From NCBI RefSeq assembly GCF_001808555.1, contig NZ_KV793791.1, forward strand, positions 2,567 to 58,881: 56,315 bases of DNA, written 5' to 3'. Under the pieces are notes generated by a model. That model saw only the letters and a list, made by a program, of their open reading frames with translations, was not told the DNA's origin and made no database searches. The stretch is from Porphyromonas sp. HMSC065F10 (GTDB lineage Bacteria; Bacteroidota; Bacteroidia; Bacteroidales; Porphyromonadaceae). The first letter of the stretch is position 1. Each line of letters opens with the position of its first letter. The translations under genes and the position numbers were made by a program. This document shows positions 1,753 to 54,372 of this stretch, piece by piece.

Positions 1753-3891
1753 TCAGCGCCTTTTCTTCCCCAGTTTATTCGCCTCGTGCGCCGACCGCTC
1801 GTGGTCACGGGCGGCGATGCGCTTGGCGGCACTCCTCTCCAGCTCTGTCGCCGCCTCTGAGCCGCCCTCCTCCGCCTGTAGCTCGAAGAGGATGTCTCTC
1901 AGCTGTGCGGCGGCAACGAAGTCGAGCGCCTTGGCGGCCGCCTGCATGGCCTCGCGGGTCTTCTCGATCTTGTCGGCGAGGTTATCCGTCCTGAGGAAGT
2001 CGAGGCTCTTCTCTGCGGCTGACTCCTTGGCGTGCTCGATGCGGTACTCCCTCGGGGTGGTGGCATCGATGGTCTTGCTCGGCCCGGTCATGTCGAGGAT
2101 CGAGCTGGTGGAGGACTTGATCGCCTGATGGGGCGTGATGCCGTGCTCCTCATTGTACGCCATCTGGATCTTTCGCCGCCGCTCAGTCTCGTCCATCGTC
2201 ATCCGCATACTGTCGGTGATCTTATCGGCGTAAAAAATGACGAGACCATTGACATTACGTGCGGCACGACCGGCGGTCTGGGTGAGGGAGCGGTGGTTGC
2301 GGAGGAAGCCCTCCTTGTCGGCGTCAAAGATCGCGACGAGCGACACCTCCGGCAGGTCGAGTCCCTCACGGAGGAGGTTGACCCCCACGAGGACGTCGAA
2401 GTCTCCGCGCCGAAGCCCCTCCATAATCTCCACCCGGCGGATCGTCACCACCTCGCTGTGGAGGTACTCCGTCTTGATCCCGAGGTCAGCGAGGTGCTCC
2501 GCCAGCTCCTCAGCCAGCCGTTTCGTCAGCGTGGTGACGAGCACCCGCTCACTTCGCTCAATGCGGGTATTGATCTCATCGACGAGGTCATCGATCTGAT
2601 TCTCAGTCGGGCGAACCTCTATCCTCGGGTCGAGGAGTCCTGTCGGGCGGATCAGCTGCTCGACGATGATGCCGTCGCTCTTCTCCAGCTCATAGTCGCC
2701 CGGCGTGGCGGAGACGTAGATCACGTCGCCCTGCATCTGCTCAAACTCGTCGAAGCGGAGCGGGCGATTGTCGATCGCCGCCGGGAGGCGGAAGCCGTAG
2801 GAGACGAGGTTTTCCTTCCGCTGCCGGTCGCCACCATACATCCCTCGCACCTGGGGGATCGTGACGTGGCTCTCATCGATGATCATCAGGTAGTCCTCGG
2901 GGAAGTAGTCGAGGAGGCAGTAGGGCCGCTCGCCCGGCTGGCGTCCATCGAAGTAGCGGGAGTAATTCTCGATGCCGGAGCAGTAGCCAAGCTCCTCGAG
3001 CATGGCGAGGTCGTTGGTGACCCGTTCGTAGAGTCGGTCAGCCTCCATCTTTTTCCCCTCCTGCTCAAAGAGGCTCGTCTGCTTGTCGAGATCCTTCTTG
3101 ATCTCCGCCATTGCCCAGTCGGTCTGCTCCTTGGTGGTGACAAAGAGATTGGACGGGTAGACAAAGACCTCGTCCAGCTCCTCGATCTCCTCACCGGTGA
3201 GGGGGACAAAGGAGGAGATCCGGTCAATCTCGTCGCCCCAAAACTCGATCCTGTAGGCGATCCCCTGGTAGTCCTCCACGGCGGGGAAGAGATCGACGGT
3301 GTCGCCCTTGGAGCGGAAGGTGCCGGGCTTAAACTCCCCCTGAGCGGTCGTGTAGTAGATCTGTACCAGCTGATGAAGCAGCTCGTCCCGCTCGATCTGC
3401 TGACCGGTCCGGATGAGGATCTTCTTGGCGGCATAGTCCTTAGGATTGGCCATACCGTAGATGCAGGAGACGGAGGCGACGACGATGATGTCGCGCCGAC
3501 CGGAGAGCAGCTGGGTGGTGGTGCGGAGTCGGAGCTTCTCGATCTCGTCATTGATCGACATGTCCTTGGCGATGTAGAGATCGTTGGTGGGGAGATAGGC
3601 CTCCGGCTGGTAGAAGTCGTAGTAGGAGACGAAGTACTCGACAGCGTTGTGGGGGAAGAAGCTCTTAAACTCTCCGTAGAGCTGCGCCGCCAGTGTCTTA
3701 TTGTGTGACAGCACTAATGTCGGTCGCTGCACCTCGGCCACTACATTAGCCGCCGTAAAAGTCTTACCGGAGCCGGTGACGCCGAGCAGCGTCTGGAAGC
3801 GCTGCCCCCGCTCTACGCCGTGGACCAGGTCAGCGATCGCCCGAGGCTGGTCGCCGGTCGGCTTGTAGCTTGATATGAGTTCAAAGTCCAT
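1753..3891 (-). CDS. uvrB: Excinuclease ABC subunit UvrB
   Basis: UvrB is the damage-verifying helicase-like subunit of UvrABC nucleotide excision repair. The 712-residue product begins MDFELISSYKPTGDQP, has Walker A GVTGSGKT (37-44), the UvrB beta-hairpin segment SYYDFYQPEAYLP, the DEAD-like IIDESH, and a C-terminal UVR (UvrC-binding) helix pair (AKALDFVAAAQLRD), then a basic tail ending GKKRR. The frame stays open upstream to 4074, but ATG 3891 matches the family start, has AGGAG 8 bases before it, and lies downstream of a promoter box at 3917-3924; the extra 61 residues would be translated repeat DNA. First gene of a uvrB-helicase pair. Confidence 0.97.
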   Translation of the reverse strand: MDFELISSYKPTGDQPRAIADLVHGVERGQRFQTLLGVTGSGKTFTAANVVAEVQRPTLVLSHNKTLAAQLYGEFKSFFPHNAVEYFVSYYDFYQPEAYLPTNDLYIAKDMSINDEIEKLRLRTTTQLLSGRRDIIVVASVSCIYGMANPKDYAAKKILIRTGQQIERDELLHQLVQIYYTTAQGEFKPGTFRSKGDTVDLFPAVEDYQGIAYRIEFWGDEIDRISSFVPLTGEEIEELDEVFVYPSNLFVTTKEQTDWAMAEIKKDLDKQTSLFEQEGKKMEADRLYERVTNDLAMLEELGYCSGIENYSRYFDGRQPGERPYCLLDYFPEDYLMIIDESHVTIPQVRGMYGGDRQRKENLVSYGFRLPAAIDNRPLRFDEFEQMQGDVIYVSATPGDYELEKSDGIIVEQLIRPTGLLDPRIEVRPTENQIDDLVDEINTRIERSERVLVTTLTKRLAEELAEHLADLGIKTEYLHSEVVTIRRVEIMEGLRRGDFDVLVGVNLLREGLDLPEVSLVAIFDADKEGFLRNHRSLTQTAGRAARNVNGLVIFYADKITDSMRMTMDETERRRKIQMAYNEEHGITPHQAIKSSTSSILDMTGPSKTIDATTPREYRIEHAKESAAEKSLDFLRTDNLADKIEKTREAMQAAAKALDFVAAAQLRDILFELQAEEGGSEAATELERSAAKRIAARDHERSAHEANKLGKKRR

Positions 3892-4117: not shown

Positions 4118-4340
4118 GCCCCCTGCACTCCTTTGTGGGAGAGACTCCAATCCCGTAGGGATGGGACACATCTGCAAGAGCTTAGACCGCCATCGGCACC
4201 ATAGGGTCATCACCGCACCAGGCCGACCCGCAATGCGGCAGAGTCGTCATGCGCCTATGGGCTTGTAGTCATCCTTTATGAGTATAAAGCAGGATGGGAA
4301 ATACCAATAAGTAAGGATGGAGTAGCGCCAAATTAGCTCC
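4118..4340. other. Non-coding region between uvrB and the TonB receptor
   Basis: No plausible gene. It contains the family D flank TTGTGGGAGAGACTCCA, a long-range inverted repeat CCATAGG (4199-4205) / CCTATGG (4254-4260) enclosing CCGCAaTGCGG, and a strong hairpin at 4270-4296 (CATCCTTTAT...AGGATG). All lie upstream of the receptor promoter box, so they are not part of its leader. No riboswitch consensus was recognised. Confidence 0.5.
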
Positions 4341-4348
4341 TACCTTTG
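4341..4348 (+). promoter_or_regulatory. -7 box for the TonB receptor/lipoprotein operon
   Basis: TACCTTTG followed by GC, about 91 bases before the receptor ATG. The leader holds a small hairpin ATTGCC-tctaac-GGCAAT (4398-4415) ending 24 bases before the start codon. Confidence 0.6.
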
Positions 4349-4439: not shown

Positions 4440-6818
4440 ATGCACAAGTCACCACTACACAGCATCTGCAGGATCCTTGTCCCGCTGCTCCTGACGCTGT
4501 CGCTCCTGACATCGGAAGCGAGGGCGACAGAGGCGACCCCCAAGGATCTCTTGCTCGTCATCACCGTCGTGGAGGCGGACAGTGGAGAGCCCGTCGTCGG
4601 AGCCATCGTCAAGTCGCCCTCTGCTCGTCGCACCCAGGTAACCGATCCTCAGGGGCGATGCACGCTCGCCTTTGCTCCCGGGACAGGGAGAGTAAAGATC
4701 TCCGTCTCGTTTCTCGGCTTCAGACCTTACGAGAAGACGATCACACTGGGCAAGGAGGGCCAACTGACGATCCGACTGGAGGAGGATGCCACCCTATTTG
4801 ACGAATTAGTCGTCGAGGGTCAGCTCAAGCACACGACCAACCTCCAACAGGCAGTGGCTGTGCAGGCGGCGACGCTCGAGAAGGGGACATCGCTCAACCT
4901 TGCCAAGCTCCTTGAGTCGGTCCCCGGAGTCAGCACCATCAGTGCCGGAAGCAGCATCTCCAAGCCGGTGATCCAGGGAATGCACAGCAGCCGCATCGTG
5001 CTGGTCAACAACGGTGTCCGCCTCGAGAGCCAGAGCTGGGGTGAGGACCACGCTCCGGAGATCGACCATACCGGTGCCTCGATCATCGAGGTGATCAAGG
5101 GGGCGGAGAGTGTCCGCTACGGTCAGGGTGCCCTCGGTGGCGTCGTGCTCTTCAATCAAGCGACCCTACCCTATGGACACAAGCGACTCTACGCACGGAG
5201 CAAGATCAACCTCGGATATGCCACCAATGGGCGAGCCTTTGATGGTGCGGGATCGGTGGAGGTCGGCTACCGAGACTGGGGGCTGCGTCTCCACGCGATG
5301 TACAATAAGTCCGGCGACTATGGGACGGCGGAGTATCTGCTCAATAACACGGGATTTAACAACATCGGCTTCTCCGCCTACGCCGGCTACGAGCATGGCC
5401 CTATCACGGCGACGCTCTTCTCAAGCCTCTACACGTCTCGCAGCGGGATCTACTTCTTCAGCTCCGTCTCCGACCTGGAGCAGCTGATGACACGCTTCGA
5501 GATCGGATGCCCGGATGAGAGCATGATCAAGCCTTTCTCTTACGAGATCAAGCCGCCCTTCCAGCAGACACAGCACTTTACCCTCAAGGGTGAGGTGGAC
5601 TACCGCGTGGCGGAGGGACACAATCTGGAGCTGAAGGTATCGTATCAGGATAACCTGAGGCAGGAATTTGAGAACCGTAAGCGGGATGACCTCAGCTGGC
5701 TGCCGATGCAGGACCTCCTCCTCACCACCATGACCTCTGACCTGGCGTGGGAAGGCGACTGGAAGGTGCTCGGCATGTCAACTCAGGCGGGTCTCTGCTC
5801 CAGCTATCAGTACAACTACAATGTCCCCGGGACGAAGCAGCCCGCCTTTATCCCCAACTTTGCCGCACTGACCCTCGGTGGCTTCGTGATCCACAAGATG
5901 AAACTCGGCAACCTCAACCTCTCGGGAGGTCTGCGGTACGACTACAAGGCCATGGACGTGCATGGTTACACGAGTCTTGCCTCCTTTAAGTACTACAGGG
6001 ACTTTAAGGTCTACGCCGCCATCACGGGCAGTCTGGCAGCACACTACAGACTGAACGACAACTATGACGTCCGGCTCAATGTCGGTCTTGCCTGGAGACC
6101 GCCGGACATCAACGAGCTCTACGCCACCGGTCTCCACCACGGCACCTACTGGGTGGTGGGAAATAAGGACCTCCTCCCAGAGGTGGGCGTGAAGCCGGTC
6201 CTCGGTATGGGCTACCGCAACGAGTGGCTGCTGATAGAGCCGAGTGCATTCTTCCAGTACGTACACAACTACATCTACGACAATATCGGGCAGGGGGCGA
6301 GACGCTTCCACAATCACCCGAGCGGGAAGTACCCGCAATTTATCTACGGTCAGGACAATGCCCGACTCTTTGGTGGGGACCTCCTCGTCAGGGTGGAGCC
6401 GCTGAGCGGTCTCTCGATAGAGATGACCGGTGAGTGGATCAACGCCCGCAACCTCACGCAGAATTGCTGGCTGCCCTTTATGCCGTCGGATCGCTATGGT
6501 CTGGCCGCCAATTACCGGATCGACTTCGGTAAGGAGCGGAAGTGGCACGCCGATGTGACGCTGGACGGTAAGTATGTGACAAAGCAGGTGCGCTTTGATC
6601 CGGAGAAAGATCTGGCACCAGACTCTCCGGACCCCTACTTCCTCCTCAATGCCAATGCAGAGCTGAAGTATGATCTCCCCGGCGGACGAAGCGTCAAGCT
6701 GATGCTGGTGGCTGACAATATGCTGAATGCGCTGTACAAGGAGTACACCGATCGCTTCCGCTTCTTTGCTCACGCGATGGGAGCCAAGTATACGATCCGC
6801 ACCGTAGTAGAGTTTTAA
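4440..6818 (+). CDS. TonB-dependent outer membrane receptor
   Basis: A 792-residue outer membrane gated channel. Order: signal peptide (1 to about 29, ending SEARA), carboxypeptidase-regulatory-like domain (about 38-115; SGEPVVGAIV, TDPQGRC), TonB plug (about 120-240; VPGVSTISAG, VIQGMHSSRIVLVNNGVR, YGQGALGGVV) and a 22-strand-type barrel ending in a terminal Phe (TVVEF), as outer membrane barrels do. It lacks the long size and partner of SusC, so it is the cation/siderophore/haem receptor type. The plug segment SWGEDHAPEID recalls ZnuD-like receptors, which is only suggestive. First gene of a run with four lipoproteins; the next start is 6 bases after its stop. Ligand unknown; a metal or haem is the best guess. 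Confidence 0.92.
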   Translation: MHKSPLHSICRILVPLLLTLSLLTSEARATEATPKDLLLVITVVEADSGEPVVGAIVKSPSARRTQVTDPQGRCTLAFAPGTGRVKISVSFLGFRPYEKTITLGKEGQLTIRLEEDATLFDELVVEGQLKHTTNLQQAVAVQAATLEKGTSLNLAKLLESVPGVSTISAGSSISKPVIQGMHSSRIVLVNNGVRLESQSWGEDHAPEIDHTGASIIEVIKGAESVRYGQGALGGVVLFNQATLPYGHKRLYARSKINLGYATNGRAFDGAGSVEVGYRDWGLRLHAMYNKSGDYGTAEYLLNNTGFNNIGFSAYAGYEHGPITATLFSSLYTSRSGIYFFSSVSDLEQLMTRFEIGCPDESMIKPFSYEIKPPFQQTQHFTLKGEVDYRVAEGHNLELKVSYQDNLRQEFENRKRDDLSWLPMQDLLLTTMTSDLAWEGDWKVLGMSTQAGLCSSYQYNYNVPGTKQPAFIPNFAALTLGGFVIHKMKLGNLNLSGGLRYDYKAMDVHGYTSLASFKYYRDFKVYAAITGSLAAHYRLNDNYDVRLNVGLAWRPPDINELYATGLHHGTYWVVGNKDLLPEVGVKPVLGMGYRNEWLLIEPSAFFQYVHNYIYDNIGQGARRFHNHPSGKYPQFIYGQDNARLFGGDLLVRVEPLSGLSIEMTGEWINARNLTQNCWLPFMPSDRYGLAANYRIDFGKERKWHADVTLDGKYVTKQVRFDPEKDLAPDSPDPYFLLNANAELKYDLPGGRSVKLMLVADNMLNALYKEYTDRFRFFAHAMGAKYTIRTVVEF

Positions 6819-6824
6819 AGCAAA

Positions 6825-8207
6825 ATGAATATGACGAGACAGATATTACCTGCCTTCGCTATCCTCCTCCTGGCTCTCATGGGCTGCAAGGATACGATGC
6901 AGAAGATAGTGAAAGCGCCCGCCCCCTTCATCGAGACCGTGGTGGTGGGACACGAGCAGATCTACACCGTGCAGGCCATCCTGAGACTGGCGGTGCGGCA
7001 CGCCGATCCGGCGGGCGAGGTGAGCGATGAGCCTTACTACTTCACCGCCTACGATCTAGATGACCAAAAGCCCACACCGGTGCCACTCTACCAAGAGATC
7101 AAGATCTCCAAGGATGAGGACGGGAATATGACGATCGTCTCACCGAGGGAGCACTTCGATGTGGTGAAGAGCAGCAGGTACTGCTATGCGCTCGAGCTGA
7201 AGTACTACGATATGAATGGTCAGCTGATCAACCACCAATTCACTCGCTGGCACGCCATGGAGGGTAAGACACCGAGGGACGTCGGCTACGATGACCCCAA
7301 CTCGACCATCCTCGTGCACCAGCACTTCTTCACCATCGACAATTACTCCCTCTCCGGACTGCCGATCGCCTTCCCTATGACGCCGGACAGCCTCTACATC
7401 GATCGCTACACCTTTGAGACCGATGGTGCCGGTGGATTGCTCCCGGCGACCCGTATGTCGCAGGCAAATGTCTTTGTCCCCACTGAGGGTCATAAGCCCA
7501 ATGGTCTGCGGTACGACTACGCTCTGGCCCTCGAGTCGGAGCGCCGCACCTCTACCAAGAGTGTGGAGGAGACCTACCGGTACCAAGGGAGGGACTATCG
7601 GCTCTACAAGACGCTTGACTCCTATGCACTCAATAAGCTCACGCCGGAGATCTTCAACTACGAGTACCGCGACACCGACCCTGTGGAGGAGTCTCTCGGG
7701 ACAGTCCTGGAGGATCAGGACGACCTCGGACGGATCCGGACGGGACACATCGTCAATCTCCTCCGCTTCCGCCGCGGGATCTACGAGGAGGGTGACGGCG
7801 GACTGTACCCACTGGAGCCGATGGGGATGAAGGGGATACTCAACTTTAAGAAGTCGGACATCCTCTTCCAGCTCAAGGTCTCCATCGCACACATCCTGAC
7901 ACAGCCGAGCAATGGGGAGAGCACCCGATTCCTCTTTGGGAAATATATGACCAACGGAGGCAACCAGGCTTCACCCTTTGACGGCGTGACCACCTATAAG
8001 TCCTACGAGATCTCTCGCTCGTGGAATAGCTTTGATATGTGCTACCCGATCTCCGTGCGGGTGATCGCTGATGCTGACGGACCGGTGGAGCGACTGGTGA
8101 GCGATGTCAAGCGGTACTACCCCGACGCCTCGGAGACGGAGCTGAGGGATATGTTTTACGGAGAGGACAATAGCTACTATCGTCGCCGTCCGAGTGTATT
8201 ATTCTAA
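6825..8207 (+). CDS. Lipoprotein of TonB receptor locus, paralogue 1
   Basis: A 460-residue predicted lipoprotein with signal peptide and lipobox ALMGC (Cys21). No family was recognised with certainty. It starts 6 bases after the receptor stop and is surely cotranscribed. Its segment around residues 102-135 (HFDVVKSS, ALELKYYDMNGQLIN) matches the next gene (YFRIIGGT, GLCLYFYDKKGNPIN). Further parallels are HFFTIDNYSLSG / LFFSVSDRDDKG and FNYEYRDT / FTYTYRDT, so the two are distant paralogues. The last 25 residues include YYPDASETEL and YYRRRPSVLF. Likely anchored in the outer membrane, possibly at the surface as a ligand-capture partner of the receptor; that role is inference from position. 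Confidence 0.75.
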   Translation: MNMTRQILPAFAILLLALMGCKDTMQKIVKAPAPFIETVVVGHEQIYTVQAILRLAVRHADPAGEVSDEPYYFTAYDLDDQKPTPVPLYQEIKISKDEDGNMTIVSPREHFDVVKSSRYCYALELKYYDMNGQLINHQFTRWHAMEGKTPRDVGYDDPNSTILVHQHFFTIDNYSLSGLPIAFPMTPDSLYIDRYTFETDGAGGLLPATRMSQANVFVPTEGHKPNGLRYDYALALESERRTSTKSVEETYRYQGRDYRLYKTLDSYALNKLTPEIFNYEYRDTDPVEESLGTVLEDQDDLGRIRTGHIVNLLRFRRGIYEEGDGGLYPLEPMGMKGILNFKKSDILFQLKVSIAHILTQPSNGESTRFLFGKYMTNGGNQASPFDGVTTYKSYEISRSWNSFDMCYPISVRVIADADGPVERLVSDVKRYYPDASETELRDMFYGEDNSYYRRRPSVLF

Positions 8208-8219
8208 GATCACACAGTC

Positions 8220-9668
8220 ATGCAGACCATCAAGACTCCCATACTCCTGATGCTTACCTCGCTGCTCTTACTCTGCAGCGGGTGCCGCAAGTTTATGCTC
8301 TTTGACGTCTCCGTCCCGGAGGATCGCAACCCACTGATCAATAAGAAGACCCCGACGACCAAGGCGGACCTCTACTTCCTCGACAAGCACCTCGCCACCG
8401 AGGAGGACCACGGACCCGTGGTGGAGGGGACACTCCCTAATCCCGACCCCGACGGAGCCTTCGCCGACTGGGCCACCTGCCTCGTGATGATCAAGGAGGG
8501 GCATGACCATGGTCAGGGCAAGCTCCACGGCAACTACGTCTACCCCAATGCGCCCTGGAAGCAGGAGCAATTCTGCGTCATCCACAATACCCCCGACGGC
8601 ATCCGCGTGGAGATGGATCGAGAGTCGACAGCCACCTTCCTGGAGTTGGAGGCAGCGAAGGAGAAGGGACAGGCGCTTGACACCGTGGGACCTGAGTACT
8701 TCCGCATCATCGGCGGGACGAAGAAGCTCTGGGGACTCTGCCTCTACTTCTATGACAAGAAGGGGAACCCGATCAACGACAAGATCTACAACGCCTCAGA
8801 GGAGTATCAGCTCTTCTTCTCCGTCAGCGACCGAGACGACAAGGGTCAGCCCTACAATGTGATGGACGTGCGCTTCCGCAATGGTCTCTCACCCGAGGCG
8901 ATGACCATGATCGACCGACCGATGGCGCTGGATGAGCGTGCCTTCATGGAGGAGAAGCCTGTCCCGGCCGCTCTCTTTGCCGGTGCGAAGAGCCTGGAGG
9001 AGCGAAGGGCTCTGACGCGACCCTACATCTTCACCTACACCTATCGTGACACCTGGACACAGGACGATATGGCGGATGGCGTGCGGACGCTCTACAACAT
9101 CCGCCTCCTGCCACCACTGATCCGGAGCCAGTACTACCTCGCCTCGCTGCCCCAGGACCAGGACTATGTAGGGCTGAAGGGGCACCTCGAATTTGACTTC
9201 CAGGATGAGGGCGCCGACTACCGCCAGTGGCCTCTGGCACGAACGAAGCCACATATGGGCGGTGGGATAAAGTATGAGCGGGGCAGCTACCTCCAGCCCC
9301 AGTTTTACCTCGCCATACAGGTGATGAAGTGCGAGAAGGGCAAGAAAAGAGTCATCCCTGCGGATAAGGATGCGGAGCATGCGCGCAATGGCAAGGCCCC
9401 TCACAACGACTTCGTCTGCGCTGACTTCGACGATCTGCGACCCGAGTCGGGCTGGCAGGAGATCATCCGGATCAATATCCCGATGAAGCAGTATGCCACC
9501 GTCTTTGATAGCGACCCTACGGACCCGGATCCCAATGAGCCCTACTACTTCCAGCTGGGACGGGAGATCGGGCTGAAGCCTCAAGAGGCGTATGAGGCGG
9601 TCTCCAACCTCAAGACCCACGGTGTGACCGGTACCGGTGGCAACGGCTACGGGTCATGGTTTCTCTGA
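8220..9668 (+). CDS. Lipoprotein of TonB receptor locus, paralogue 2
   Basis: A 482-residue predicted lipoprotein, lipobox LCSGC with Cys22, 12 bases after the previous stop. It is a distant paralogue of the preceding gene (shared YFYDKKGNPIN-type and FTYTYRDT blocks, and a following GLKGHLEFDF block that parallels GMKGILNFKK). A histidine cluster at about residues 95-103 (GHDHGQGKLHG) is a possible metal-binding patch; this is not conserved in paralogue 1. Two nearby acidic/His stretches (EEDHGP; HNDFVCADFDD) add to that impression. Function unknown; probably exported to the outer membrane and working with the receptor. Confidence 0.75.
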   Translation: MQTIKTPILLMLTSLLLLCSGCRKFMLFDVSVPEDRNPLINKKTPTTKADLYFLDKHLATEEDHGPVVEGTLPNPDPDGAFADWATCLVMIKEGHDHGQGKLHGNYVYPNAPWKQEQFCVIHNTPDGIRVEMDRESTATFLELEAAKEKGQALDTVGPEYFRIIGGTKKLWGLCLYFYDKKGNPINDKIYNASEEYQLFFSVSDRDDKGQPYNVMDVRFRNGLSPEAMTMIDRPMALDERAFMEEKPVPAALFAGAKSLEERRALTRPYIFTYTYRDTWTQDDMADGVRTLYNIRLLPPLIRSQYYLASLPQDQDYVGLKGHLEFDFQDEGADYRQWPLARTKPHMGGGIKYERGSYLQPQFYLAIQVMKCEKGKKRVIPADKDAEHARNGKAPHNDFVCADFDDLRPESGWQEIIRINIPMKQYATVFDSDPTDPDPNEPYYFQLGREIGLKPQEAYEAVSNLKTHGVTGTGGNGYGSWFL

Positions 9669-9686
9669 TTACACAATCCTATTGAC

Positions 9687-11087
9687 ATGAAAACGAAGAT
9701 ACATCCTTCCTGCCTCCTTCCGCTACTGGTGCTACTCCTCAGTAGCTGCCTCGGACTCACTCGACCTGAGGAGGAAGAGAAGCGGGTCAGCGACGACCAC
9801 TTGATGATCAAGGAGGTATTCAGCTCCGGCACCTACACCCCCGATGTAAAGTGGGGCAGCGGCTTTGTAGGACCGGCATCCTACGACTACGACAAGTACA
9901 TCATCATCTACAATCCCACCTCCAAGGTGATCTACCTCGACAGTCTCTGCATAGCCAGGACGGCATTCCAGATGGACCTGGCGATCGACCTCAAGGGGGA
10001 CGAGGAATTTACCGAAACCCACTGTCCGGTGGATAACATCATGATGTTCCCCGGGAGCGGACACGACTATCCCATCAATCCGGGAGAGGAGAAAGTCCTC
10101 ACAGCGGTGGCGGTCAATCACACGCTGAGCCGAGAGGAGATGATGAAGAAGTACACCTTCGTCAGCGAGAGCTTCTTCATCGGTGGTACCTCGACGGAGA
10201 ATAAGAAGGCGTGCGACCTGTCAGGTGCCGACTTCGAGTGGCTCACCCCATCACAGATGCGGAACAATTACTTCTACTACCTCGAGGACACCAATACGGT
10301 GCCCAACTTGATCCCCGTCTTTGCGGGCTTTCAGTACAATAATCCGGAGTGCGAGGGACAATTTGATGTCCCGGAAAACCGGACCCTCCTCCTCGTCAAG
10401 CTGGGAGTCCCCCCGACAGACCTTGATCAAGAGAAGTACTGGTGGGACTACGAGACAGGACACGAAAACTCCTTCCACAGCCTCGAGACACCCCACCACA
10501 AGGCGCACGTCAAGGGCGATGCCCACTGCGTCAAGCTCCCCAATGAGTGGGTCATCGATGCGGTCTCGATCTGCCCCCAGAAAAACTATAAGCGCACCCG
10601 TGTCTCCAAGGAGATCGATGCCGGATACAATAGCGTCCGGGAGGGAAGGGAGAGCGATGCACAGCAGGGGAGCTGGCGAGGTTACTCCCTGCAGCGGAAG
10701 TATAATGGCGAGCGCTTCCAGGACACGAACAACTCGACCACAGACTTCGAGAAGCAGGCAGCGACACTCCTCACCATCCCTCCGAAGAAGCTCTACAACC
10801 CCAATGTCACCCTCGTCGACGGGCATAGCTACCGGATGACTGTCGGGCAGAAGGAATTCTTCATCCGTGCCAAAGTCTCTCCGCGTAATGCCAAGGAGAC
10901 CGCTGTCACATGGACCAGCTCCGACCCATCAATCGCGGAGGTGAAGGGGACCCCGACCAAGCCACGCACCGGCATCAGTGCCGCCTGGATCACCGGCCTC
11001 AAGCCCGGCACCGTCACCATCACCGCCTCCCTCGCCAATGGCGCAGAGGATGTCTGCACGCTGGTCGTAGAGGCTCCCAAGGAATGA
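9687..11087 (+). CDS. DUF4876-like lipoprotein with C-terminal Ig-like (Big_2) domain
   Basis: A 466-residue lipoprotein (LLSSC, Cys21), followed by PEEEE. An acidic run soon after the lipid-bearing Cys is reminiscent of Bacteroidota lipoprotein surface-export signals. The N-terminal two-thirds (IKEVFSSGTYTP, YDYDKYIIIYNPTSKVIYLDSLCIA) resembles DUF4876 proteins, known from Bacteroidota beside TonB receptors. Residues about 375-466 form a bacterial Ig-like fold (ETAVTWTSSDPSIAEVKG, PGTVTITASLANG). Eighteen bases separate it from the previous gene, and a terminator follows immediately, so it closes the first transcript. Probable cell-surface protein; ligand unknown. Confidence 0.78.
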   Translation: MKTKIHPSCLLPLLVLLLSSCLGLTRPEEEEKRVSDDHLMIKEVFSSGTYTPDVKWGSGFVGPASYDYDKYIIIYNPTSKVIYLDSLCIARTAFQMDLAIDLKGDEEFTETHCPVDNIMMFPGSGHDYPINPGEEKVLTAVAVNHTLSREEMMKKYTFVSESFFIGGTSTENKKACDLSGADFEWLTPSQMRNNYFYYLEDTNTVPNLIPVFAGFQYNNPECEGQFDVPENRTLLLVKLGVPPTDLDQEKYWWDYETGHENSFHSLETPHHKAHVKGDAHCVKLPNEWVIDAVSICPQKNYKRTRVSKEIDAGYNSVREGRESDAQQGSWRGYSLQRKYNGERFQDTNNSTTDFEKQAATLLTIPPKKLYNPNVTLVDGHSYRMTVGQKEFFIRAKVSPRNAKETAVTWTSSDPSIAEVKGTPTKPRTGISAAWITGLKPGTVTITASLANGAEDVCTLVVEAPKE

Positions 11088-11089
11088 CA

Positions 11090-11122
11090 TACGGCCGTAA
11101 AGGTATCAGCCGTACTTTTTTT
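11090..11122 (+). terminator. Rho-independent terminator
   Basis: TACGGC (11090-11095) pairs with GCCGTA (11109-11114), followed by C and seven T. It starts three bases after the stop of the DUF4876-like gene. Confidence 0.75.
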
Positions 11123-11154
11123 GCTAACCAAAACAATCAAGAATAATGTACACC

Positions 11155-12204
11155 ATGAAGAAAATCAAACTCCAAGCCCTCCTCTCAGTCACCCTGCTCC
11201 TCCTGACCTTACCCGGCTGTAAAAAGCCCGGCGAGGGGTCCGAGCCGACGCCGGAGAGCGCCACCGTGACCATCAGTCCCAGCACCGCCAAGCTCAAGGT
11301 GGGCGAGACACTCAAGCTCACCGCCACCATCACCCCGAAGGACGCCAAGGGGATCAAGCTCACCTGGAGTTCATCCGACCCCGAGGTGGCTCAGGTCGAC
11401 AGGAGTAGCGGTGAGGCGAAGGGGGTCAAGGCAGGCAAGGCGATCATTACCGCCCGTCTCTCCAGCGGCAAGTCCGCCTCCTGCACCCTCGAGGTGATCG
11501 ATGAGGGCGGGAAGACACCGGAACCCACGCCCACGCCCACACCGGAGCCCACACCCACACCCACACCCACGCCCGGGGAGTACACCTACACCATCACAAC
11601 GGACCAGACTGAGTACACCGTCGAGGTGGGGAAGAAGATCACCATCAAGCCTACCCTCACTCCGACTCCGAAGGAGGGGGAGACAGTCTCTTTCACCTTC
11701 AATGGGGGCAAGAAGTACATCGAGGGGAAGGGTGAGATCATGATTGCGCTCGTCAACATCGACGGCTCCGTCGAGGGTGTAAACGAAGGGGAATGCACCG
11801 TCACCATCTCAGCCAAGGGCGCCAAGCCGGTCGAGTGCAAGGTGATCGTGAAGAAAGCCACGCAGGAGACCGTAACGCTCCCCGAGGGTGCCCGCGTCGC
11901 CATCATGCGTGAGGTGGACGGCGTGGACGAGGAGGTGAAGTCGAAGATCACCTTCAACACCTACACCTCTTCCTTCACCCTCACACCGGTAGTGCTGGAT
12001 AAGGACGGACAGGTACTCGAGAGCGACACAGCATACGAATTTGACTGGAGCTCCTCCAACACCGAATTAGTGGAGTACAATGCTCTTATGGGGAACTTTA
12101 ATCTCCCGAGCGGTAAGACCGGTACCTGCAAGCTGACCGCCACTCTCAGGGGATCGGACGCCTCGGCCTCGGTAGAGGTGGAGATCGTAGCCCCGAAGAA
12201 GTAA
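11155..12204 (+). CDS. Lipoprotein with Ig-like domain and Pro-Thr linker
   Basis: A 349-residue lipoprotein from ATG 11155 (MKKIKLQALLS..., lipobox LPGC, Cys22); the frame also allows ATG 11146. Residues about 35-113 are a Big_2-type Ig domain (TVTISPSTAKLKVGETLKL, LTWSSSDPEVAQVD, KAIITARLSSGKSASC), the same fold as the end of the preceding protein. A Pro-Thr-Glu linker follows (about 119-141, repeats of PTPTP), then a second Ig-like region (TYTITTDQTEYTVEVGKKI) and a C-terminal third with ASVEVEI. It follows a terminator, so it may be read from read-through or its own promoter. Likely a surface or periplasmic adhesion or structural lipoprotein. Confidence 0.78.
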   Translation: MKKIKLQALLSVTLLLLTLPGCKKPGEGSEPTPESATVTISPSTAKLKVGETLKLTATITPKDAKGIKLTWSSSDPEVAQVDRSSGEAKGVKAGKAIITARLSSGKSASCTLEVIDEGGKTPEPTPTPTPEPTPTPTPTPGEYTYTITTDQTEYTVEVGKKITIKPTLTPTPKEGETVSFTFNGGKKYIEGKGEIMIALVNIDGSVEGVNEGECTVTISAKGAKPVECKVIVKKATQETVTLPEGARVAIMREVDGVDEEVKSKITFNTYTSSFTLTPVVLDKDGQVLESDTAYEFDWSSSNTELVEYNALMGNFNLPSGKTGTCKLTATLRGSDASASVEVEIVAPKK

Positions 12205-12211
12205 TCTCCTT

Positions 12212-12386
12212 GAGACCTTTGCATAACACCCCATCTGCAGCGTCACTTTCGAGATTCGGGCTTGGTCATGTGCGTAAGCACACTCCCTTCGCCCTCACTC
12301 TCAGTCCCTTGCATCTGGGGCGTTCTGCAAAGTCCCTGCCGAAAAAGCGGTACTTTTTCGGCTAAAGACCATTTTGCAAAGGTCTT
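12212..12386 (-). mobile_element. MITE subfamily A, copy 1
   Basis: 175 bp, about 16 differences from copies at 48341 and 54093, in inverted orientation. Ends GAGACCTTTGCA / TGCAAAGGTCTT are terminal inverted repeats. It is flanked by the perfect 5-bp direct repeat TCCTT (12207-12211 and 12387-12391), the footprint of transposition. It holds a GCCGAAAAAG/CTTTTTCGGC hairpin and no gene. It lies 7 bases past the lipoprotein stop. Confidence 0.88.
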
Positions 12387-12401
12387 TCCTTACATAAAGC
12401 A

Positions 12402-12437
12402 GAAGACCGCACCACAGGATCCTGTGGTGCGGTCTTC
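12402..12437. terminator. Perfect 36-bp palindrome, likely bidirectional terminator
   Basis: Two 18-bp arms (12402-12419 and 12420-12437) match without mismatch around GGATCC. It lies between the convergent lipoprotein gene and rfbC, 7 bases past the rfbC stop. There is no proper T-run on either side, so termination is inferred from position and stem strength. Confidence 0.6.
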
Positions 12438-12444
12438 CTATTTC

Positions 12445-42230: not shown

Positions 42231-42659
42231 TCAGTCGCTCTCGTGCTGACGACGGCACCTCGGGCACTCGCCCTTGATGACAAAGGAGAGCGAGTGGGGC
42301 GTATAGCCCTCCGGCAGCTCCATCTCCGGCAACGGGAGATCCTCCATACAGAAGGACTGGCGACACGACTCGCAGTAGAAGTGGATGTGCTCGTCTCGCC
42401 GGTCGCAGGGGCCCTCGCTGCCACAGAGCTCGTAATTGAGCAATCCTCGACCGTCCTCAAAGGCGTGGACGATGTCTTGCTCTAAGAAGAGCGTCAGCAC
42501 ACGGAAGATGCTGGACTTATCCATCGGACTGAGTGTCAGCTCCAGATCCGTCAGCGTCACCGGGTGCTCCTCGCCACGCAGTGCCTTCAGCACAAGTATG
42601 CGATTGGCGGTGGGCTTGACCCCTTTTTGCTCAAAGTAGCTCTCGATGTCTTGCTCCAT
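42231..42659 (-). CDS. Fur-family transcriptional regulator
   Basis: A 142-residue metalloregulator. The winged helix is PTANRILVLKALRGEEHPVTLTDLE and the recognition helix region KSSIFRVLTLFLEQDIVHAFED. The dimerisation half has the metal-binding HIHFYCESCRQSFCMED and the second structural zinc pair in KGECPRCRRQ, giving two CxxC sets. It may be Fur, Zur or PerR; the sequence does not decide. Its ATG is 1 base after the amylase stop, so the two are cotranscribed. No obvious inverted-repeat box was recognised upstream of susC. Confidence 0.88.
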   Translation of the reverse strand: MEQDIESYFEQKGVKPTANRILVLKALRGEEHPVTLTDLELTLSPMDKSSIFRVLTLFLEQDIVHAFEDGRGLLNYELCGSEGPCDRRDEHIHFYCESCRQSFCMEDLPLPEMELPEGYTPHSLSFVIKGECPRCRRQHESD

Positions 42660-53645: not shown

Positions 53646-54086
53646 ATGTCTACGACCATTCGGATAGTGAATAAGAGCGGACACCCGCTCCCCACCCACG
53701 CCACCGCCGGCTCAGCAGGGCTTGACCTCCGTGCCGCTCTCGAGGAGCCGGTGACGCTGGAGCCACTCGATCGGGCGCTGATCCCGACCGGACTCTACTT
53801 CGCCATCCCGGCGGGGTACGAGGTGCAGATACGCCCCCGTAGCGGACTCGCGATGAAGCACGGCATCACGGTACTCAATACCCCCGGCACCATCGACAGC
53901 GACTACCGCGGAGAGATCCGTGTGGCGCTGATCAACCTCTCCCGTGAGCCCTTCACGATCGAGCCGGGAGAGCGGATCTGCCAGATGGTCCTGGCGCGCT
54001 ACGAGCAGGTGGAGTGGGTCGAGACCGAGCAACTCGACGACACTGACAGGGGCGAGGGTGGCTTCGGTCACACCGGTCGTAACTGA
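53646..54086 (+). CDS. dut: dUTP diphosphatase Dut
   Basis: A 146-residue trimeric dUTPase that hydrolyses dUTP to dUMP. The five motifs run in order: [12 protein letters not shown] (1), [11 protein letters not shown] (2), [15 protein letters not shown] with catalytic Asp and Tyr (3), [11 protein letters not shown] (4) and [12 protein letters not shown] (5). ATG 53646 follows the lpxK stop by 25 bases and is preferred over an in-frame ATG inside lpxK. A MITE begins six bases after the stop. Confidence 0.96.
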
Positions 54087-54092
54087 CAGCGA

Positions 54093-54267
54093 AAGACCTT
54101 TGCAAAAAGGTCTTTCGCCGAAAAAGCACCGCTTTTTCGGCAGGAAGTTTGCAGAATACCTCAGATGCAAGGAACTGAGAGTGAGGGCGAGGGGAGTGTG
54201 CTTACGCACATAACCAAGCCCGAATCTCGAATGTGACGCCACAGATGGGGTATTATGCAAAGGTCTC
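54093..54267 (+). mobile_element. MITE subfamily A, copy 3
   Basis: 175 bp, one base different from the copy at 48341. Ends AAGACCTTTGCA / TGCAAAGGTCTC. Flanks AGCGA and AGAGT do not match, so the target duplication has decayed or the element arrived by recombination. Begins six bases after the dut stop. Confidence 0.85.
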
Positions 54268-54372
54268 AGAGTAGGAGATAGTCGGGCAGTCTGGTACCCT
54301 TTTTGCATACCAAAGGATGCCGACCGCCTCTCTTGTGCGGTCACGTAAGAGACAATAGTATTTTATCGAGAT

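Follow-up and report, generated by a model that had tools for sequence, protein, structure and literature searches.

A conserved Bacteroidales operon encoding a TonB-dependent receptor and lipoproteins, with a candidate iron operator

Growth of the Bacteroidales of mouth and gut is controlled by the supply of iron, yet little is known of their non-haem uptake. Several described systems combine a TonB-dependent receptor (TBDR) with surface lipoproteins. HmuR-HmuY, which takes up haem in Porphyromonas, is one such pair. The Bacteroides xenosiderophore uptake system XusABC associates an iron-regulated TBDR with a ligand-binding surface lipoprotein, XusB, which is a DUF4374 β-propeller with a PepSY partner (PMC13142918). 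The hallmark of IhtAB is the chelatase-like lipoprotein IhtB. One or more DUF4876 lipoproteins adjoin a TBDR in PG1019-22 and BT3625-33, which are strongly induced under iron depletion, as are PG1175-81, the hmu operon at PG1551, the flavodoxin PG1858 and BT2473-82 (PMC10434189). The zinc receptor ZnuD of Neisseria is without lipoprotein partners. Its buried zinc site is formed by the plug Asp/His, E340 and H499, and it was initially misannotated as a haem receptor owing to shared motifs (PMC4557270).

The locus presented here was found in a window of 56,315 nucleotides from Porphyromonas sp. HMSC065F10 (contig NZ_KV793791.1, positions 2,567 to 58,881). Five open reading frames (ORFs) on the + strand are separated by gaps of 6, 12, 18 and 58 nt, in agreement with the operon of one receptor and four lipoproteins proposed in a preliminary description. 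The lipid anchors proposed there were also found, as each of the four lipoproteins has an N-terminal hydrophobic stretch with a Cys at its end. The features are, in window coordinates:

4300 to 4319, + strand: putative iron-regulator operator AATACCAATAAGTAAGGATG, with three mismatches to the consensus AATACYYANNNNTRRGTATT, at a position shared with 16 other cassette promoters
4341 to 4348, + strand: -7 promoter element of the Bacteroidota type, TACCTTTG (TAnnTTTG), recognized by its sequence and its fixed position relative to the operator
4440 to 6818, + strand: TBDR, 792 aa, with Pfam CarboxypepD_reg_2 (N-terminal), Plug (D203-H204) and β-barrel domains
6825 to 8207, + strand: lipoprotein LpA, 460 aa, a new family with conserved GHxQ and HQxxF motifs
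8220 to 9668, + strand: lipoprotein LpB, 482 aa, a remote paralogue of LpA as judged from sequence, with a conserved EGHxHx5HGN motif
9687 to 11087, + strand: DUF4876 lipoprotein, 466 aa (Pfam PF16215), with a C-terminal Big_2 domain
11146 to 12204, + strand: accessory Ig-domain lipoprotein, 352 aa, with Pfam Big_2 repeats
12401 to 12438, strand unspecified: strong bidirectional hairpin with a stem of 16-17 bp and a loop of 4 nt, probably the operon terminator

The third lipoprotein had been described as DUF4876-like with a C-terminal Ig domain and the fourth as a repetition of the Ig fold. Both assignments are borne out by Pfam; the DUF4876 match reaches 86 bits for a cut-off of 27.9, and 4q1z is a solved relative of this protein. 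A sigma-70 promoter scan was set aside as ill-suited to Bacteroidota. An interspersed repeat is present at 12262-12440, just 3' of the operon, and at 53712-54344, as well as at loci L021, L122 and L123. It reads LRPLHNTPSxASHSRFGLGxVRKHTPxALTLSxLHLG in false ORFs and recurs throughout the genome.

The first four genes form a conserved cassette. TBDR, LpA, LpB and DUF4876 genes follow one another in the same order at 29 of 29 named loci bearing LpB, so that receptor and lipoproteins are co-conserved. These loci belong to Porphyromonas, Bacteroides, Prevotella, Hoylesella, Segatella, Alloprevotella and Ca. Cryptobacteroides, and the hosts include many mouth and gut bacteria. Profile searches detected LpA and LpB at full strength in 13 of 38 family genomes, which were identical for both proteins; scanning genome contigs with a single LpA sequence returned no matches, and the LpB alignment succeeded as a query. 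Two cassette loci (L087 and L090) have broken frames. As the flanking genes vary from species to species, the cassette is free-standing, and no conserved flanking gene able to name the ligand was found among the cassette loci. The fifth gene does not belong to this unit, contrary to the preliminary description. The Ig lipoprotein adjoins the cassette only in the window, in P. somerae and, more distantly, at L028; it is accessory and lies outside the conserved cassette. Likewise, the Big_2 tail of the DUF4876 protein occurs only in the window and in P. somerae. Two DUF4876 genes, instead of one, occur in P. pasteri, P. levii and oral taxon 278. A second copy of the cassette is present in the genome of the window (contig C19, L021), where a 151-aa ORF with no named family match (3136-3591) separates the receptor gene from its operator/promoter. 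No description of the cassette or of the palindrome presented below was found among the papers searched.

LpA and LpB have no relative in Pfam, NCBIfam or the PDB, and the cassette thereby yields two protein families without a database entry. They had been regarded as apparently duplicated ligand-binding subunits on account of shared blocks; the duplication is upheld by profiles. The pairwise BLAST comparison is weak (best HSP with E of 4e-4); profile-profile alignment gives a probability of 96.9% and an E of 1.4e-10 over 48 columns. The blocks YYD.NG..IN, Y.YRDT and G(F/L)KG, shared beyond chance, are collinear in both proteins. On this sequence evidence LpA and LpB are remote paralogues. His residues are conserved in both, and the His cluster previously noticed in LpB is retained as EGHxHx5HGN in 41 of 44 LpB ORFs, the remaining three being broken ORFs; it is a candidate metal motif. 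AlphaFold (AF2) models, with pLDDT of 76 for LpB and 74 for LpA, predict a similar order of secondary structure elements, with strands followed by two final helices. Foldseek had been proposed for assigning folds to the lipoproteins. Comparison of LpA and LpB with the PDB by Foldseek and VIA-align gave no convincing match, the best Z values of 6.4 (LpB) and 5.2 (LpA) corresponding to generic β-sandwiches. The missing match is neither proof of a new fold nor a case against one.

The nearest solved structure to the receptor is ZnuD (profile E of 2e-23). The region of the ELYAxG motif and the Asp-His pair of the zinc site in the plug are retained, the latter in 42 of 46 receptor ORFs. In contrast, the position of H499 is variable (H 13, E 3, N 6, Q 19). 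E340 fell outside the alignment, and D90 is printed in PMC4557270 where the alignment suggests D99. The receptor also differs from ZnuD by its lipoprotein partners, by its iron-linked operator, and by a score of 78 bits against the NCBIfam ZnuD model, far under the cut-off of 950, so that membership of this family by that model was rejected. The best-scoring NCBIfam model, TonB-hemin (TIGR01785), gives 144 bits for a cut-off of 317, and membership was rejected here as well.

The preliminary description had set the locus apart from SusCD and HmuRY, and the comparison agrees. No SusD domain was found, and the RagA/SusC model gives 48 bits for a cut-off of 368. A surface lipoprotein accompanies the receptor in HmuR-HmuY, and the gene hmuY of a relative is preceded by the same palindrome as the cassette. 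However, the HmuY domain (PF14064) was matched neither by any of the five proteins nor elsewhere in the genome of the window; instead, the cassette encodes two unrelated paralogous lipoproteins and a DUF4876 protein. XusABC was rejected, as no protein of the cassette has a Pfam match to DUF4374 or PepSY. With regard to IhtB, LpA and LpB gave no match in Pfam or NCBIfam, the comparison being made through family models alone. The DUF4876 proteins bring PG1019-22 and BT3625-33 closer, but no LpA or LpB is named there according to the annotation in PMC10434189, and an operon of the BT3625-33 type, without LpA and LpB, is separately present in the genome of the window. The cassette thus appears, from its sequence, to be a conserved, undescribed member of the kind formed by TonB receptors with surface lipoproteins. 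The separate operon (L022, G000:C87:22000-38000) is preceded by the palindrome and resembles the iron-induced BT3625-33; it encodes a PepSY_TM protein, a large CarboxypepD-type outer-membrane protein, a DUF6850 protein, two DUF4876 lipoproteins and an ABC ATPase.

The palindrome AATACYYANNNNTRRGTATT starts exactly 41 nt 5' of the -7 element (TAnnTTTG) in 17 of 30 cassette promoters. The copy of the window, AATACCAATAAGTAAGGATG, is degenerate, yet it stands at this exact position (p of about 0.007 versus shuffles of its upstream region). The box is absent from several cassette promoters, such as those of B. pyogenes and B. heparinolyticus. With a consensus derived from the cassette promoters plus the first matches in the same genome, there are 13 sites in the genome of the window versus 2 for the reversed control, and 190 versus 60 when summed across the genus; some matches are intragenic and are probably chance occurrences. 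In the genome of the window, the palindrome precedes FeoAB, the second cassette, a TetR-MMPL pair, rubrerythrin, an imelysin-DHOR operon and a PepSY-TBDR-DUF6850-2×DUF4876-ABC operon. In related species it is found upstream of feoAB (three more genomes), TetR-MMPL, rubrerythrin, flavodoxin and hmuY; sites lie just 5' of hmuY (L166 3306, G011), flavodoxin (L170 3091, G008) and feoAB (L159 3147, G003). One box adjoins a CDF efflux gene. The kinds of genes preceded by the box are among those responding most strongly to iron depletion in P. gingivalis and B. thetaiotaomicron (PMC10434189), the PG and BT loci being matched to them by description. The palindrome is a candidate general iron operator of Porphyromonas. 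Iron repression of the cassette is therefore probable, given a box that also stands before feoAB, hmuY, flavodoxin, rubrerythrin, imelysin/DHOR and TetR-MMPL in Porphyromonas genomes.

A candidate for binding the palindrome is encoded in the window itself (42231-42659, - strand). This Fur-family protein, with CxxC pairs and a weak match to PF01475, is the sole one detected in the genome, where a DtxR-type regulator has no match. It resembles the non-canonical PgFur type; PgFur reportedly fails to bind a Fur box of the classical kind (PMC6613475).

The capture-and-import system proposed in the preliminary description stands in outline: it withstands the refutation suggested there, as receptor and lipoproteins are co-conserved, and the paralogy is upheld. 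For the ligand, and for the way in which the parts cooperate physically, we infer the following. With reasonable but limited confidence, the operon is an outer-membrane uptake system induced by iron starvation, and probably an undescribed route of iron uptake. Upon iron shortage, a repressor would leave the palindrome, which overlaps the -33 region, and the receptor, LpA, LpB and the DUF4876 protein would be produced jointly. The lipoproteins, presumably anchored in the outer membrane and exposed at the surface, would capture a ligand that contains iron, for which conserved His of LpB, and of LpA, are candidate binding residues. They would pass the ligand to the receptor, the plug Asp-His pair of which would face the channel, and TonB would drive it into the periplasm. 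FeoAB, from the same regulon, could then import Fe2+.

Among the ligands initially put forward (metal, haem or cobalamin), iron is favoured because the operator is common to iron genes. Several observations count against this reading: the degenerate operator of the window, the boxless cassette promoters, the zinc carried by ZnuD, the box next to a CDF gene, and the lack of a match of LpA or LpB to a known ligand-binding fold. Non-haem iron, as an ion or a small complex, is somewhat preferred to haem on account of the kinship with ZnuD, the plug Asp-His pair, the LpB motif and an association with the lack of HmuY: the cassette is present in 5 of 6 HmuY-less near-complete family genomes versus 8 of 26 others (one-sided p of 0.029, kinship ignored). 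Uptake of haem or haemoproteins, with LpA and LpB as His-ligating haemophores and an HmuR-like receptor, is a possible but doubtful alternative. TonB-hemin and TonB-hemlactrns are the top NCBIfam models for all 13 receptors, the box of the cassette recurs before hmuY in one relative, and both lipoproteins have conserved His. However, the haem score lies far below its cut-off, ZnuD was itself once mistaken for a haem receptor through shared motifs, HmuY is absent, and the loop residue of the outer ligand (H, E, N or Q) is atypical of a haem ligand.

An importer of zinc or another divalent metal, of the ZnuD kind with added metal-binding surface lipoproteins, would account for the nearest solved relative, the nearly invariant Asp-His of the high-affinity site and the His-rich motif of LpB. 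It is judged improbable in view of an operator common to feoAB, hmuY, flavodoxin and imelysin, the variable H499 position and the low ZnuD score. Import of cobalamin or another organic cofactor deserves hardly any credence: the receptor is weakly similar to BtuB models, but no cobalamin riboswitch was matched by Rfam within the window, no BtuG/BtuH-like domain was found in the cassette proteins, and the operator is of the iron type.

In a bolder and rather unlikely version of the iron reading, LpA and LpB would pair as a heterodimer of new fold and serve as a surface receptor that strips iron from a host or microbial iron carrier and feeds it to a ZnuD-like channel. The pair would then be a Bacteroidales counterpart of transferrin/lactoferrin piracy, built from unrelated proteins.

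The iron-induced genes PIOMA14_I_0804-08 of P. intermedia are a candidate for the same cassette. More distant relatives of the cassette were also encountered. In addition to its regular copy, P. pasteri has a divergent cassette that lacks DUF4876 (L034/L092); the lipoproteins encoded at L034 (3409-9117) are remote relatives of LpA and LpB. At L035 (5825-10047), another divergent operon of receptor plus lipoprotein, likewise lacking DUF4876, encodes a receptor that retains the plug motif DHAPE.
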